This document shows, piece after piece, positions 26,245 to 56,539 of a stretch of 64,000 nucleotides of DNA (its first letter is position 1; each line of letters opens with the position of its first letter). Position numbers and translations under genes: made by a program. Where the stretch lies: NCBI GenBank assembly GCA_020847535.1, contig JADLBU010000031.1:1-64000 (forward strand), read 5' to 3'. The notes below the pieces were generated by a model, which searched no databases, was not told where the DNA came from, and saw nothing but the letters and a program-made list of their open reading frames with translations. Source of the DNA: Phycisphaerales bacterium. Its GTDB lineage: Bacteria > Planctomycetota > Phycisphaerae > Phycisphaerales > UBA1924.

Positions 26245-26260
26245 GTAAGCAATTGCTTAC
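26245..26260. repeat. 16-bp perfect palindrome
   Basis: GTAAGCAATTGCTTAC is fully self-complementary and spans the stop codon of the downstream oxidoreductase gene in the space where two genes converge. No U run follows. Confidence 0.8.
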
Positions 26261-27417
26261 CAGGGGTCCATCCATTCAAAGCCGGATGGCTGGCCGAGTT
26301 TCTCCAGGGTTTCGCTCCGGCGGGTCCAGTTGCGGGCGGCTTCGAGGATCTCGGCGACGATGATGTTGAAATCGATGCTGGACAGCGGATCGACGGGGCA
26401 CCGGCCGCGAACAACCTCGCGGAGGTAGGTCCACTCGTTGTCGAGGGGGGACGCGTTGGGGGTTGGGTCGATCTTGCGTGGCGGCTGGTTGGGATCGCGG
26501 ATCGCCAGGTCGTTCCATTTGCCGGCGTGGATGGATCCGCGATCGGTGTAGACATCCATTTCTTTGTTGTCGTGGGTCCAGCACCAGGAAGCCTGGATGA
26601 CCGCGGTGGCGGTGGGGTAGGTGAGGATGATGGTGGCATCGTCATCGACGATGGGGTAGAGATCGGGCTTGAGGGTCGAAGCGCTGGCGACCACGGAGGT
26701 GGGGCGCTGGCCGTTCATGAGCCAGGTGGAAAGGACCGCGCCGTAACAGCCGAAATCGACGATGGCGCCGCCGCCGGCGAGGCGGTAGTCGGTGAGCCAG
26801 GCGAGGAACTCCTCGGAGCAGCCGATCTCGCGGGGGCCCCTGTGGCCGTGGCGGAAGTTGAGGCGGCGGATGGGGGAGAGCTGCCCGGAGGCAAGCAGGC
26901 GCTGGGCCTCGCGGATGGAGGCGTACCAGCTTGTTTCGTAGTTGGTGAGGGCGAGCACACCGTGCTTGTTCGCGAGACCGGCGATCTTGTTGGCATCGGC
27001 GGCGGTGTAGGCGAGCGGCTTCTCGAAGAGCATGTGGATGCCGCGCGGGGCGCAGAGGCGAGCGACGGCGACGTGATCGCGGTTGCAGGTCATGACGCTG
27101 ACGGCCTCGGGGCGAGCGTTGTCGAGCATCTCCTCGGGATCGTCGTAGCGGAGGGAGGGGTCGAGGTTGTACTTGCTCGCGTAGCGGTCGAAGAGGGCTT
27201 TGTCGGGTTCGAAGATGGCGACGATCTGGATGTCCTGGCGCTGGGTGGAGTTCCAGAGCGGACCGTGGGCGTGGTCATGGGTGAGGCGGAAGATCGCCAG
27301 CCGGAGGGGGCCGGTCTGAGTGGAGTAGTTGGTTCCACGGTCCTCCGTTGGAGCGGGGGTGCTAGAGCAGGCGGCCAGAAGAACGAGCAAGGGGAGCAGG
27401 AAGAGAATGCGGAGCAT
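26257..27417 (-). CDS. Gfo/Idh/MocA-family oxidoreductase with lipoprotein signal
   Basis: 386 aa. Starting at ATG 27417 the protein opens with a lipoprotein signal (LLPLLVLLAACSS, Cys near residue 17), then a Rossmann-type NAD(P) domain and the family's FEKPLAYTAADA segment (the EKP motif) near residue 135, and a C-terminal alpha/beta domain with GGGAIVDFGCYGA. The family oxidises or reduces sugars. Export of a nicotinamide-dependent enzyme is unusual, though lipoprotein or Tat forms are known in planctomycetes. It is the last gene of the carbohydrate cluster, 40 bp after the permease, so it probably acts on the same sugar. Confidence 0.85.
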   Translation of the reverse strand: MLRILFLLPLLVLLAACSSTPAPTEDRGTNYSTQTGPLRLAIFRLTHDHAHGPLWNSTQRQDIQIVAIFEPDKALFDRYASKYNLDPSLRYDDPEEMLDNARPEAVSVMTCNRDHVAVARLCAPRGIHMLFEKPLAYTAADANKIAGLANKHGVLALTNYETSWYASIREAQRLLASGQLSPIRRLNFRHGHRGPREIGCSEEFLAWLTDYRLAGGGAIVDFGCYGAVLSTWLMNGQRPTSVVASASTLKPDLYPIVDDDATIILTYPTATAVIQASWCWTHDNKEMDVYTDRGSIHAGKWNDLAIRDPNQPPRKIDPTPNASPLDNEWTYLREVVRGRCPVDPLSSIDFNIIVAEILEAARNWTRRSETLEKLGQPSGFEWMDPW

Positions 27418-27457
27418 CTCCAGAGCATACCGATGCGAAACAGCGGCCAGTGGGCGA

Positions 27458-28201
27458 TCACTCCTTGATTCCCGTCGCGGCGACACCATCGATGAAGAAG
27501 CGGCGGGTGAAGATGTAGATGAGCAGGACGGGGGCGGCGGTCATGCAGCTGGCGGCCATGACCAGGTTCCAGGGGGCCTGGCCGTGCTGCTGGTTGAACA
27601 TGTGCAGGCCCAGTGAGAGGGTGTATTGGTCCTGGTGGTTGAGGAAGAGGAGCGGGCCGAGGAAGTCGTTCCAGGAGGCGATGAACTGCATGAGGGCGAC
27701 GGCGGCGAGCGCGGGAAGGGCGGCGGGGAGGATGATGCGTGTGAAGACGCCCCAGTGTGAGCAGCCATCGATGCGGGCGGCTTCATCAAGCTCGCGGGGG
27801 ATGGTGAGGAAGAACTGGCGGAGGAGGAAGATGGAAAAGCCGCCGCCGAAGCACATGGGGAGCCAGAGGGGGAGGAGCGTGCCGATGAGGCCCAGCTTCT
27901 TGAAGAGGATGTAGAGCGGGGCCATGACAACGACGGGGGGGATCATGAGAGTGGCTAGCACGAGCATGAATACGGCATCGCGGCCGCGCCAGCGCAGGCG
28001 AGCAAAGCCGTAGGCGGAGATGGCGCTGGAGGCGGTCATGCCCGCGACCGAGAGGATCGCGACCAGCGTGGAGTTGCGCAGGTACGTGGGGAAATCGGCG
28101 ATCGGGGAGTTCCAGACCTGCGTGTAGTTGTCGATGGTTGACTGCACGCCGAGGGAGTTGGCGGGGGCGGGTGCGCGCATCGAGACGAGGAGCATCCACA
28201 C
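27458..28201 (-). CDS. Sugar ABC transporter permease (MalG-like)
   Basis: 247 aa from the first recognised start codon (GTG 28201). It has the inner-membrane permease domain with the EAA loop IPRELDEAARIDGCSHWGVFTRIILP near the middle and the usual C-terminal helices, ending in FFIDGVAATGIKE, a typical CUT1 ending. However, the start lies inside the first membrane helix. The same frame stays open upstream to the stop codon of the preceding permease and encodes RPSSRQRLSRFILIWGVGLA, exactly the missing basic N-terminus and helix. A GGAG sits 8 nt before an in-frame ATC at 28285, giving a 275-aa protein. See findings. Confidence 0.88.
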   Translation of the reverse strand: MWMLLVSMRAPAPANSLGVQSTIDNYTQVWNSPIADFPTYLRNSTLVAILSVAGMTASSAISAYGFARLRWRGRDAVFMLVLATLMIPPVVVMAPLYILFKKLGLIGTLLPLWLPMCFGGGFSIFLLRQFFLTIPRELDEAARIDGCSHWGVFTRIILPAALPALAAVALMQFIASWNDFLGPLLFLNHQDQYTLSLGLHMFNQQHGQAPWNLVMAASCMTAAPVLLIYIFTRRFFIDGVAATGIKE

Positions 28202-28288
28202 GAGCGGGATCGCGTAGGCGAGCCCTACACCCCAGATCAGGATGAAGCGGGAGAGGCGTTGGCGGCTGGAAGGGCGTGAGGGGATGGA

Positions 28289-29170
28289 TCAGGCTCCGCG
28301 GTAATAGACAGCGCGGCGAGCCAGCCACAAGAGGCCGCCGGTGAGGATGAGGGTGAAGCAGACCTGGATCCAGGCCATCGCCGAGGCGTAGCCCATGCGT
28401 CCATAAAAGAAGGCGTTGAGGTAGACGTAGACGGAGTAGACGAGCGTGGAGTCATCGGGGCCGCCCTTGGTCATGATGAGCGGGGGAGCGAAGACCTGGA
28501 GGGACCAGATGAGCGACATCACGGCGTTGAAGAGGACGGCGGGCGAGATCATGGGGAGCGTGATGTGGGCGAACCGGCGCCAGGGTCCGACACCATCCAG
28601 CTCGGCGGCTTCGTAGAGAGATGCGGGGACACCCTTGAGGGCGGCCGAGTAGATGATGATGGGGCTGCCGATCGACCAGAAGCTCATGATGATGAGCGCT
28701 GGCATCGCCAGGGCGCGGCTGCCGAGCCAGTCGGGGCCTTGGACATCCAGAAGCGAGAGTGATTGGTTGATCAGGCCCTGCTCGTTGTTGAAGAGCCAGA
28801 GCCAGCTCATGCAAGAGGCGACGATGGGAACCAGCGCGGGGGCGAAGACGATGGCGCGAACAAGGCCGGCGCTGCGGAGCGGCGCTTCGAGGAGGAGGGC
28901 GATCCCGATCGAGAGGATCGTCGAGCCGATGACGGAGGCGATCGCGTAGGTGATGGTGTTGGTGAGCGAGGTGGCGAACAGCTTGTCGGAGAGGAGTTCG
29001 CGGTAGTTTTCGAGGCCGATGAAGACGGGGCCTTCGAGGAGCGAGTCGTCGGTGAGGCTGTAGTAGAGGCTCATGGCGATCGGCGCGAGGAGGAAGAGTG
29101 CAAAGCCGATGAGCCAGGGGCTGATCCAGGCGAGACCGCGGAGGAGGTGGGGGAGTTGGCGATCGGGCAT
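28289..29170 (-). CDS. Sugar ABC transporter permease (MalF-like)
   Basis: 293 aa, six predicted membrane helices, with the EAA loop VPASLYEAAELDGVGPWRRFAHITLPM near residues 200-225. It forms the CUT1 permease heterodimer with the following gene, whose coding frame begins within a few bases of this stop. The start at ATG 29170 (MPDRQLPHLL) is preferred over the ORF start because the upstream stretch is a short purine-rich repeat. It lies between the binding-protein gene and the second permease. Confidence 0.92.
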   Translation of the reverse strand: MPDRQLPHLLRGLAWISPWLIGFALFLLAPIAMSLYYSLTDDSLLEGPVFIGLENYRELLSDKLFATSLTNTITYAIASVIGSTILSIGIALLLEAPLRSAGLVRAIVFAPALVPIVASCMSWLWLFNNEQGLINQSLSLLDVQGPDWLGSRALAMPALIIMSFWSIGSPIIIYSAALKGVPASLYEAAELDGVGPWRRFAHITLPMISPAVLFNAVMSLIWSLQVFAPPLIMTKGGPDDSTLVYSVYVYLNAFFYGRMGYASAMAWIQVCFTLILTGGLLWLARRAVYYRGA

Positions 29171-29177
29171 GGGGATA

Positions 29178-29197
29178 GGCAGTGGGGAGTAGGCAGT
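29178..29197 (+). repeat. 20-nt direct repeat, copy 2 (GGCAGTGGGGAGTAGGCAGT)
   Basis: Identical to 4440-4459 and in the same orientation. It starts 8 bp upstream of a minus-strand start codon (29170). Confidence 0.8.
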
Positions 29198-29209
29198 AGG
29201 GGAAGGCAA

Positions 29210-30574
29210 TCAGGACGTTCGGCGAGCGAGTCGGCGTTGGGCGGCGAGATGCATGAGTTGCTGGGCGCGGGATTGGATGTCTTTGAGGACGGGTTCGATG
29301 GGTTGGCCGTTCCAGGCCTGGTCGAAGGCGCGGGAGGTCATGTCGGCGTACTGCTGCCAGACGCGGGTTTGGGGGAGGATGAGGGCTCGCGGGCTTTTGA
29401 CGATCGAGTCGAAGGTTGTAACAAACGGGTTGGGGTGAGCGCTTGTGAACTCGGTGGAGACAGCGCGGAGTGGGGAGCTCTTGCCGTGGGCGGTGGCGAG
29501 TTCTTCCTGGACATCCTGGCGCTGCATGAAGCGGATGAATTGCCAGGCCTCGCGTGGGTGGCGACAGCCGCGCGGGACCATCAGGATGTCGGCCTCGACC
29601 ATGCCCAGGGGCGCGGAGGGGTCGAGGAGTGGATCATGGACGGGCGGCGATGCGCACGCGAACCGGAGATTGGGGGCCTGCGTGCGGGCGAAGTTGGCGA
29701 GCCAGGGGCCCTGGATCACCATGGAGGCCCGGCCGGAGAAGAACGGATCGCCGGCGGTGTGGTAGGAGCGATCGAAGGTGCGTGCGAGCGAGCGGGATTG
29801 CTGGATTCCCAGGCGAGCGGCGGTGCGTGAGATCCAGTTGAAGGCGGAGAGCCCGGATGGATCGGCGAGCGTGGCGCGGTCGCTCGCCGGGTCGTAGAGC
29901 GTTCCGCCGAAGAGGATGGGCCAGAAGTAGGGCCACCATTGCGGGAGGTTCTGCTGGAAGCCGGTGCGGGTGAGGTTGCCGTAGGTGTCGCGCTGGGTGA
30001 GTTGGTCGGCGAGCGTGTCGAGTTGGGAGATGGTCTGAGGGAGGCGGGTGGGGTCGATGCCGGCTTCTTGGAGATGATCGAGGTTGCAATAGAGGCCCAG
30101 GGCGTAGCAGCTTGTGACGGCGGCCCATTGGCGATCGCGGTAGGTGAGCAGCGAGCGGATGGAGGGGGCGTAGATCTCGGGGTCGAGCGGTTCGGTGGGA
30201 GTGGCCAGCTCATCGAAGGGGATCGCGGCGAGCGATTCGGCGAAGTGGGGGATGTTGAAGCTGTAGAGGCCGACAAGGTCGGGGGGATCTCCACCGCCGA
30301 TCGCGACCATGGCCTTGGGGACGATGTCGGCGATCGGTATGCGGCGGATCCAGATGCGATCCTGCGTTGTGTTGAAGCGATCGATGATGCGGTCGAGTGC
30401 GAGGCCTTCGATGCCGGTCCATTTCTCCCAGTAGTCGAGGATGGTGCGGCCGGCGGGAATGTTGGCGTGGGAGCGCGGGGTGCGTGGCCAGAGGAGAGCG
30501 CTTGCGGCGGCAGCGCCGGCGATTCCGAGGGCAGCGCGGCGGGTGATCCTGGCTGGGCGCGTGGTACTTGACAT
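29210..30574 (-). CDS. Sugar ABC transporter substrate-binding protein
   Basis: 454 aa. It starts at ATG 30574 with a signal that contains a twin-arginine-like RRAALGIAGAAAASAL, so Tat or Sec export is possible. The body resembles CUT1 extracellular solute-binding proteins: DYWEKWTG near the mature N-terminus, DPPDLVGLYS-like and FSGRASMVIQGPW late. It binds the sugar outside and delivers it to the two permeases downstream (spacing about 40 bp). The ATP-binding subunit is not in the window, as is common for CUT1 systems that share one ATPase. The neighbouring fucosidase suggests a fucose-containing substrate. Confidence 0.88.
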   Translation of the reverse strand: MSSTTRPARITRRAALGIAGAAAASALLWPRTPRSHANIPAGRTILDYWEKWTGIEGLALDRIIDRFNTTQDRIWIRRIPIADIVPKAMVAIGGGDPPDLVGLYSFNIPHFAESLAAIPFDELATPTEPLDPEIYAPSIRSLLTYRDRQWAAVTSCYALGLYCNLDHLQEAGIDPTRLPQTISQLDTLADQLTQRDTYGNLTRTGFQQNLPQWWPYFWPILFGGTLYDPASDRATLADPSGLSAFNWISRTAARLGIQQSRSLARTFDRSYHTAGDPFFSGRASMVIQGPWLANFARTQAPNLRFACASPPVHDPLLDPSAPLGMVEADILMVPRGCRHPREAWQFIRFMQRQDVQEELATAHGKSSPLRAVSTEFTSAHPNPFVTTFDSIVKSPRALILPQTRVWQQYADMTSRAFDQAWNGQPIEPVLKDIQSRAQQLMHLAAQRRLARRTS

Positions 30575-30600
30575 GGTCGCCGTGTCGGGACACAAAGCAG

Positions 30601-30698
30601 CTCACCACAGAGGACACAGAGAAAACACAGAGCGCGATCAGAGGGGCTTGTGTTTGCCCTTTTATTTCTTGCCTTTCATCTGTGCTCTCTGTGGTGAG
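30601..30698. repeat. Imperfect inverted repeat with CACAGAG arms
   Basis: CTCACCACAGAGGACACAGAG at 30601 is mirrored by TCTGTGCTCTCTGTGGTGAG at 30679 (the outer 12 bases are perfect). The interior is unusually AT-rich. The element fills the gap between the fucosidase and the binding-protein gene and resembles short dispersed intergenic repeats. Confidence 0.8.
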
Positions 30699-30715
30699 GC
30701 TTCTTCCCCCGTCTT

Positions 30716-32875
30716 TCAGTGTCGGTGCTTGAGTTCGCTGACCGGGACCTGCTGCTTCTTGATGCCGGGGCCGGCCCAGGTCACGACCAGCTCGTGCCCG
30801 CCCGTGTTCTCGAAGTAGGTGACTTCAATGGGGTGCCAGCCGGCGGCGAGCGGGATGTGACCGAAGCGGTCCTGGGGGCTGTGGGGCTTGTCGTTATCGA
30901 CGACGAGACGATCGGCGATCCGGAGCTGGCTGCCATCATCGGATCGCGTGCCGAAGCGGTACATTCCATCGCGGGGGATGTGGATGAAGCCGCGGAAGCG
31001 GTAGGCCCAGTTGTCGTGGGTGGGGTGGGATGAGGTGTCAAAGCCCGTGGAGATTCCGGTGCGGATGGGTGTGAGCGAGGCGAGCTCGTTGACCGACTTG
31101 ATTGCGGCGTTGAACTGTTCGAAGGCGAGGCCATCGGACAATCCCGTCGTTTCGACCGCCGGGATCGGCGCAACCTGGGTGAACGTGCGGCGGGCCACAG
31201 GGCTGACGGGTTGATCCCCTCGGAAAGAGCGGGCAGACAGGGTGCAGGTGCGGCGGATCGTGACCGGCTTGCCTTCGGCGCTCAGAGAAGTCGCCGTCGG
31301 ATCGCTGCCATCATTGGTGTAGCGGATGGTGACGCCCGTGCGATTCGAAGTCAGATGGACCGGGATCTGGTCGACGAACTGGTCGGAATCCGCCTCGATC
31401 ACGGGAGGTGCACTGAGGTCTGGTGCGCCAGTGATGTCCAGTGCGATCACGGAGTCGTAGGGATCTGGGGCGGATCCCGAGACATGGACGATCAGGTCAT
31501 CGCCGCGGCGGCTGCATTTTTGGTACCCGCGAGCCGCAGGAATGGATGTGGAATCGGCGATCCCATCGCCGTTGAGGTCTGTCCCGGATCCCGAGATGCC
31601 ACGCGGGGAAAGCACATGAACCGCCGTCGCCGTGTTCATCAACCCTGGGAGGACGATGTCTCCGTTCGTCGGCCAGTCAAAGACGTGCAAGTACAGGCGC
31701 GTTTTGTGACGATCGAGCTGCTTCTGTGTGATGCAGCCCCACGCGAGCGGGGCATCGTACGGGCTGGCCTGTGTTCCGTAGATCGATTCGCCGTAGTTCT
31801 TCATCCAATGCCCGATCGCGGCGAGACGGTCGAGGCTCTCGGGCGGGATCTCTCCTTCGGCGGTCGGACCGACATTGAGGAGGAAGTTGCCACCCTTGGA
31901 GGCGATATCGGCGAGCTTGCGGATGAGGTCGGTGGTGGTCTTGAAGTTCTTGTCGGCGGCGTTGTATCCCCAGTGGCCGTTCATGGTCATGCAGGTTTCC
32001 CAGGGCACCTTGCGGAGGGCGCTGGCGGGGATCTCCTGCTCGGGGGTTGCGTAGTCGCCGGGCATGTTGCCATCCTCATCCATGCCCCAGGCTGCGCCGC
32101 CGCGGCCGACGCGGTTGTTGATGATGATGTTGGGCTGGAGGGAGCGGGTGTAGTTCTCGAGGTCGCGGCCGCGGACATCGTTCCACGTGCCCTCCCACTG
32201 GCCATCGAACCACAGGACGCCGATGGGGCCGTAGTTGGTGAGCAGCTCGGCGAGCTGGCCTTTCATGAAGCTGACGTAGCGGTCCATGTCTGCGCCGGTA
32301 TCGGGGCGCTGGTCCTTCTCCCACGGGCGGCGGGGCGTGTAGTCGGGGTGGTGCCAGTCCATGATCGAGTGGTACCAGCACATGGCGATCCCGTGGCGGG
32401 CGCAGGCATCGGCGAGCTCCTTCATGATGTCGCGCTTGAAGGGGGTGGACATCACATCCCAGTCAGTCATCTTTGAATCGAAGAGGGCGAAGCCATCGTG
32501 GTGCTTGGAGGTGATGACGATGTACTTCATGCCCGCGTTCTTGGCGGCGAGCACGATGGCATCGGCGTTGAACTTGACGGGGTTGAAATCGGCGAGGAAC
32601 TTGTCGTACTGGTCGACGGGGATGCGGCCGGTATCGCGGATCCACTCGCCGTGGTCGGTTCGATCTCCCCACTTGCCGGCGGGGACGGCGTAGAGGCCCC
32701 AGTGGATGAACATGCCGAAGCGGGCATCGGTCCACCAGGCGAGGCGCTTGTCGCGCTCGGCGATCGCGGCGGCGGATGCCTTGTTCGTGCCGGCATCGGT
32801 TGTGTGGGTCGTGGTGCTCGCGCAGCCGGCGGAGAGGGAGAGGATCGCGGCGAGCGGGATCGAGAACTTGAGCAT
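30716..32875 (-). CDS. GH29 alpha-L-fucosidase with C-terminal PA14-like domain
   Basis: 719 aa lipoprotein (LSLSAGCAS, Cys near residue 18). It hydrolyses terminal alpha-L-fucose from glycans. The GH29 fold is recognised from WWTDARFGMFIHWGLYAVPAG, the YHSIMDWHHPDY substrate-site segment and the nucleophile Asp in VLWFDGQWEG (near residue 220). After the barrel come a sheet domain, a chitobiase-like beta module and a PA14-like domain (GMYRFGTRSDDGSQLRI). It is first in the minus-strand cluster with the ABC importer and oxidoreductase. ATG 32875 is chosen; the ORF extension is leader. Confidence 0.93.
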   Translation of the reverse strand: MLKFSIPLAAILSLSAGCASTTTHTTDAGTNKASAAAIAERDKRLAWWTDARFGMFIHWGLYAVPAGKWGDRTDHGEWIRDTGRIPVDQYDKFLADFNPVKFNADAIVLAAKNAGMKYIVITSKHHDGFALFDSKMTDWDVMSTPFKRDIMKELADACARHGIAMCWYHSIMDWHHPDYTPRRPWEKDQRPDTGADMDRYVSFMKGQLAELLTNYGPIGVLWFDGQWEGTWNDVRGRDLENYTRSLQPNIIINNRVGRGGAAWGMDEDGNMPGDYATPEQEIPASALRKVPWETCMTMNGHWGYNAADKNFKTTTDLIRKLADIASKGGNFLLNVGPTAEGEIPPESLDRLAAIGHWMKNYGESIYGTQASPYDAPLAWGCITQKQLDRHKTRLYLHVFDWPTNGDIVLPGLMNTATAVHVLSPRGISGSGTDLNGDGIADSTSIPAARGYQKCSRRGDDLIVHVSGSAPDPYDSVIALDITGAPDLSAPPVIEADSDQFVDQIPVHLTSNRTGVTIRYTNDGSDPTATSLSAEGKPVTIRRTCTLSARSFRGDQPVSPVARRTFTQVAPIPAVETTGLSDGLAFEQFNAAIKSVNELASLTPIRTGISTGFDTSSHPTHDNWAYRFRGFIHIPRDGMYRFGTRSDDGSQLRIADRLVVDNDKPHSPQDRFGHIPLAAGWHPIEVTYFENTGGHELVVTWAGPGIKKQQVPVSELKHRH

Positions 32876-33170
32876 GAGGTGGCTCCTGCTGAAGAAGGGC
32901 GTTCTGCGGTCTATGCATGCGGTGATGGGCAATCGGCGTAGGCGAGATGGGTAGGTTGTGAGGGGCAGTCTCGCAGCTTGCCCACGAAAAGACAAGCGGA
33001 CGACTGGATCGCGGGTAGAGGATGACGACAGGCATGGCCCGCGCACGCCCTACGGGCCGCATGCGGCACCGATGTCATCGAGGGTTATGGCGCTGGCGCT
33101 GGCCACAGTCGCTTCAGTTGTCGATGACGATACGGGGCGCTGTGGTTGGAGTGGCGCAGGGAGACCGAGA

Positions 33171-56391: not shown

Positions 56392-56539
56392 GCCCACACG
56401 ATACCACGCGGGGATGTCAGTGGAGCGGCGGTGCGATGCGAGCATGCTCACGGGAGCAACGGGATGCACGGCAACCGTCAGGCCGGCATACGTTCGGAAC
56501 TCCTGACCAAGAGGCCGGGCTCCCCTTTGCGGCTACCGT

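Follow-up and report, generated by a model that had tools for sequence, protein, structure and literature searches.

How translation of a membrane protein begins when its reading frame has no AUG, GUG or UUG codon ahead of the first transmembrane helix is the question raised by a sugar permease gene of a Phycisphaerales bacterium. The gene lies in a window of 64,000 nucleotides (contig JADLBU010000031.1, assembly GCA_020847535.1), the whole stretch of DNA analyzed here, which belongs to a metagenome-assembled genome of 134 contigs.

A permease reading frame without a canonical start codon

On the minus strand, the gene order is a GH29 alpha-L-fucosidase with a PA14 domain (30719-33046), an extracellular solute-binding protein (29210 to 30595; Pfam PF01547/PF13416), MalF-like and MalG-like permeases of the same ABC sugar transporter, and a Gfo/Idh/MocA oxidoreductase. 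The malF gene (28289 to 29170) likely starts at ATG 29170, although its frame is also open from TTG 29209, and it ends in CGC GGA GCC TGA, with the stop at 28291-28289. No ATPase gene was found within the stretch read of this fucosidase/transporter/oxidoreductase cluster (26257-33046), and an ATPase shared with other systems may therefore serve the transporter, whose substrate may be fucosylated sugars.

The MalG-like protein matched PF00528 (BPD_transp_1) with 76.4 bits. A profile built from the malG alignment matched 2r6g_G (E 2.9e-38), N-terminal segment included, and in Foldseek searches the AlphaFold model resembled E. coli MalG structures (3puz_G, TM 0.77). Domain, sequence and fold thus identify it as a MalG-like CUT1 ABC sugar permease; because it missed the NCBIfam MalG equivalog cutoff (117 of 261 bits), we do not name it MalG proper. 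It is like the CUT1 permeases MalG, SugB and AlgM2 in fold, sequence and a six-helix core with an N-terminal helix 1, but differs from them in its short first periplasmic loop, also present in the same-genus relative L035, and in its candidate non-AUG start.

After the malF stop, the malG frame continues with TCC ATC CCC TCA CGC CCT TCC AGC CGC CAA CGC CTC TCC CGC TTC ATC CTG ATC TGG, and it remains open to the TGA at 27460-27458. Reading of the sequence and of its translation bore out the preliminary description, in that the 29 codons from 28288 to 28202 include no ATG, GTG or TTG. The earliest canonical codon of the frame is the GTG at 28199 to 28201. Six in-frame near-cognate codons precede it, namely ATC 28285, ATC 28243, CTG 28240, ATC 28237, GTA 28228 and ATC 28210, and only ATC 28285 (28283 to 28285) has a Shine-Dalgarno (SD)-like core at a usable spacing. 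This core, a GGAG at 28294 to 28297 within the final malF codons, lies 8 nt before the ATC, as described beforehand. Counted from this ATC, the gene spans 27458 to 28285, stop included, and encodes the 275 residues initially given.

One way out would be a shorter MalG of 247 residues started at GTG 28201, the first canonical start codon in frame. Some ABC permeases do have five-helix cores. However, the leader from 28202 to 28282 encodes a basic N terminus and most of helix 1, and both elements are present in all 18 aligned relatives (51-68% identity to the window protein). Helix 1 spans residues 7-35 in the AlphaFold model, at a pLDDT of about 80-87 (blocks 2-3). The GTG corresponds to residue 29, so that the open reading frame called from it begins inside the helix, as had been claimed, and would keep just seven helical residues. 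The invariant Pro27-Leu28 of the alignment is encoded upstream of it, and inspection of the sequence before it revealed no suitably spaced SD core. Every full-length relative encodes helix 1, which upholds the proposed N-terminal extension over the five-helix form that homologues starting at the GTG would have suggested. We rejected the view that a normal permease starts at GTG 28201, because such a start would delete a helix common to all relatives, and we consider the short form very unlikely. The true N terminus of the protein lies upstream of this codon, and helix 1 belongs to the protein.

The malF-malG junction in relatives

The preliminary description had left the choice between a rare AUC start and a sequencing error, and had held that relatives with ATG at this position would point to a local mutation or error. 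When the N termini of homologues were compared, exactly such relatives were found. The same-genus relative (L035/L006) reads GTCTATTACCGCGGAACCTGA CCC ATG CAC at the place where the window reads GTCTATTACCGCGGAGCCTGA TCC ATC CCC. From stop to start, the junction is TGA-CCC-ATG in that relative, TGA-CTC-ATG in L007 and TGA-TCC-ATC in the window. The ATC is thus the homologue of a start codon, and the view that it reflects a local mutation or error was correct; the idea of an established AUC start was not supported, as the nearest relatives have ATG. All close relatives have ATG at this position and a single genome has ATC, so that, by parsimony on the aligned sequences, ATG appears ancestral and ATC derived, a local change in one metagenome-assembled genome. 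A lineage-wide conserved AUC start for malG was rejected in view of the ATG at the same base in the nearest relatives. In a mechanical search of 55 malG loci, the window alone had no canonical codon ahead of the middle of helix 1, and the same search of the neighboring malF gene found none among 33 loci.

The window malF and malG genes share one frame, as they do in L035, L007 and L011. A malG start codon would be unnecessary if the UGA of malF were read through to give a MalF-MalG fusion, an arrangement that the common frame allows and in which both termini would be cytoplasmic. Nevertheless, malF and malG of most relatives overlap in an ATGA and differ in frame, and the same-frame relatives start malG with ATG, which makes a fusion extremely improbable.

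The ATG found at this very base in the nearest relatives also raises the possibility of a consensus error or a minority-strain allele, i.e., that the organism truly has ATG and the assembly shows C for G. One G/C difference would account for everything, and the genome was assembled from a metagenome and is spread over 134 contigs. On the other hand, the 41,708 codons aligned from this genome were free of frameshift and nonsense breaks, a count in which substitutions would not show, and base quality therefore looks good; moreover, a random error is a priori unlikely to hit a start codon in the window. We regard an error or strain allele as rather unlikely. The single apparent break, at 56418-56514 of the window, is an in-frame insertion, which speaks against poor assembly in general.

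The coding sequence itself is intact. None of the 48 alignment columns without variation among the other 17 sequences is changed in the window protein, and comparison with L035 gave dN 0.23 and dS 0.88 for malG, and dN 0.19 and dS 0.60 for malF, whose product is 75% identical to its L035 counterpart. The preserved invariant positions and the dN and dS values of malG argue against pseudogene decay. In these alignments, long decay is not evident; a very recent loss is possible, since the purifying selection seen there mirrors the past. Sequence quality and purifying selection together argue against gross error at malG.

Probable AUC initiation in this lineage and proposed translation of malG

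A gene with a rare start of the same class is found in the same genome. Ahead of the conserved RIRIN motif, its infC gene (L061, G000:C19) lacks ATG, GTG and TTG; the sequence there is GGAG-TAGAACAC-ATC, i.e., GGAG-N8-ATC, a layout identical to that of malG. At the corresponding infC site, nearly all relatives read (L062-L091, same family and order) have an in-frame ATC, and one, L084, has ATG. With an infC gene of its own that lacks a canonical start, and ATC in nearly all relatives, this lineage is very probably able to initiate at AUC. E. coli starts infC with ATT, and Streptomyces with ATC (PMC5472188). The candidate malG start and that of infC are alike as AUN-class non-AUG codons in a GGAG-N8-ATC context. 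In contrast with infC, where the ATC is conserved across the relatives read and the rare start is autoregulatory, the rare codon is not kept in relatives at malG, and control by initiation factor IF3 would be incidental there.

To judge the spacing, we used 66 conserved starts of this genome, of which 59 are ATG, five GTG and two TTG. GGAG, GAGG or AGGA precedes 23 of them, compared with 11% of internal ATGs, and spacings of the SD core at conserved starts peak at 5-8 nt. The anti-SD sequence CCTCC is present at the 16S 3' ends of order-level relatives, while the 16S 3' end is absent from the assembly itself. Given the enrichment of SD cores at conserved starts and the identical infC layout, the GGAG-N8 geometry at malG appears plausible. 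The same-genus relative has GGAA in place of the malG GGAG, and the coincidence of a weaker start with a stronger SD is, as a single case, only suggestive. For mRNA structure around the start, z was 0.65 in the window and 0.89 in L035.

We therefore favor, at a probability of roughly 55%, the reading that this is an ordinary CUT1 malG-like gene in which the ancestral ATG one codon past the malF stop has mutated to ATC, in this species or strain, and whose protein is most likely still made, at a lower level, from AUC. The GGAG in the final codons of malF would keep ribosomes that terminate at the malF TGA close to the site, and these would reinitiate with fMet-tRNA at the AUC, whose first base lies three bases past the stop. 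Gene pairs so closely spaced are coupled by termination-reinitiation (PMC10666635). Proofreading by IF3 would work against the AUC and limit the yield of MalG, as at infC; raised IF3 inhibits both initiation at non-canonical codons and SD-less reinitiation (PMC2268962). If the base was called correctly, it is credible that malG has a real, though weak, AUC start.

Reporter assays in E. coli show how weak such a start may be. ATT gave about 0.3% of the activity of ATG (Hecht 2017 as cited in PMC10666635), while ATA reached up to 1% (PMC12864459). Of the AUN codons, AUG alone is a strong start in E. coli, and by analogy MalG might be nearly absent if it is started at one of the others. The mutation would then in effect have silenced malG; hardly any product, if any, would be made, and the transporter would recently have lost its function. 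The presence of the change in this genome only fits that view. Yet malG has kept all 48 invariant positions, the genes for MalF, the solute-binding protein and their neighbors are intact, and the lineage starts infC from ATC at the same spacing. We deem silencing unlikely.

Continued expression from AUC would have known counterparts. An E. coli O104:H4 rpoS mutant (PMC12864459) likewise changed an ancestral ATG to an AUN codon by a single base in an otherwise intact gene, and its product was down at most 5-fold, not abolished (PMC12864459). That ATG>ATA change was laboratory acquired and measured, whereas the malG ATC is environmental and read from sequence. Streptomyces sigR, which starts with a GTC repressed by IF3 (PMC5472188), resembles malG as a gene outside the initiation-factor system that has a non-canonical start and is misannotated by gene finders restricted to ATG, GTG and TTG. 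Its GTC is conserved and experimentally functional, while the malG ATC comes from one genome. The malG gene is thus an additional example of a rare known phenomenon, seen with the ATT or ATC of infC and the GTC of sigR, and the mechanism is not new. If the base call is right, malG represents a natural use of AUC as a start codon other than at infC, and the infC gene of this lineage shares its start layout; malG would then be a good test case for the rescue of a weak start codon by termination-reinitiation. In addition, annotation limited to ATG, GTG and TTG strips the first helix from membrane proteins.

Possible non-canonical starts elsewhere in the genome and the order

To place malG against its genomic background, we took about 1 Mb from this genome and compared it with 1.2 Mb from that of the same-genus relative. 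Among 147 reciprocal-best open reading frame pairs left after filtering, not all of which are real genes, malG and prfB, the latter with its programmed frameshift, were the only convincing genes in which homology begins ahead of the first canonical start; all other flagged pairs looked spurious on inspection. As only these two stand out convincingly, non-canonical starts appear to be rare in the compared stretch, with no genome-wide habit. Together with the 66 conserved starts, all of them ATG, GTG or TTG, this gave no sign that start-codon use is relaxed in general in this genome.

Inspection of the junctions by eye yielded three weaker look-alikes. In L049 (G135:C77), near locus position 1264, a CTG of malG overlaps the TGA of malF (CTGA) where relatives have ATGA; just CTG or ATC is available near the stop, the nearest canonical codon lying about 30 codons inside malF, and CTG is a possible start. 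In L041, identical to L037 (UBA2402), the sole canonical start candidate for the N-terminal part of malG is a GTG within helix 1, and an out-of-frame ATG CGG CTT CGA is found near the junction, which suggests an indel or another mode of initiation. In L221 (G097:C11), a CTG that may serve as start takes the place of the TTG start of close relatives, and a GTG lies eight codons further on. Taken with the window ATC, these cases can be read as near-cognate starts that are tolerated, or selected as an IF3-linked dosage control, at tight malF-malG junctions of Phycisphaerales. The supply of MalG would then track the translation of MalF and the level of IF3. We hold such dosage control to be improbable.

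The prfB gene, which encodes RF2, presented a peculiarity of its own. Its programmed +1 frameshift (L109; G000:C5:17098-17113, minus strand) occurs at CTT TAA C, i.e., at UAA, not at CTT TGA C. In this genome and the same-genus genome, the sequence directly ahead of the frameshift site shows no purine-rich SD-like stimulator. About 30 genomes of the family show CTTTAACTACGA in putative prfB matches. A 2025 survey reported TAA at the prfB frameshift in only 1.4% of genomes and found it not broadly fixed in particular clades (PMC12421855). Set against that survey, the family with CTTTAACTACGA looks like an exception to its conclusion.
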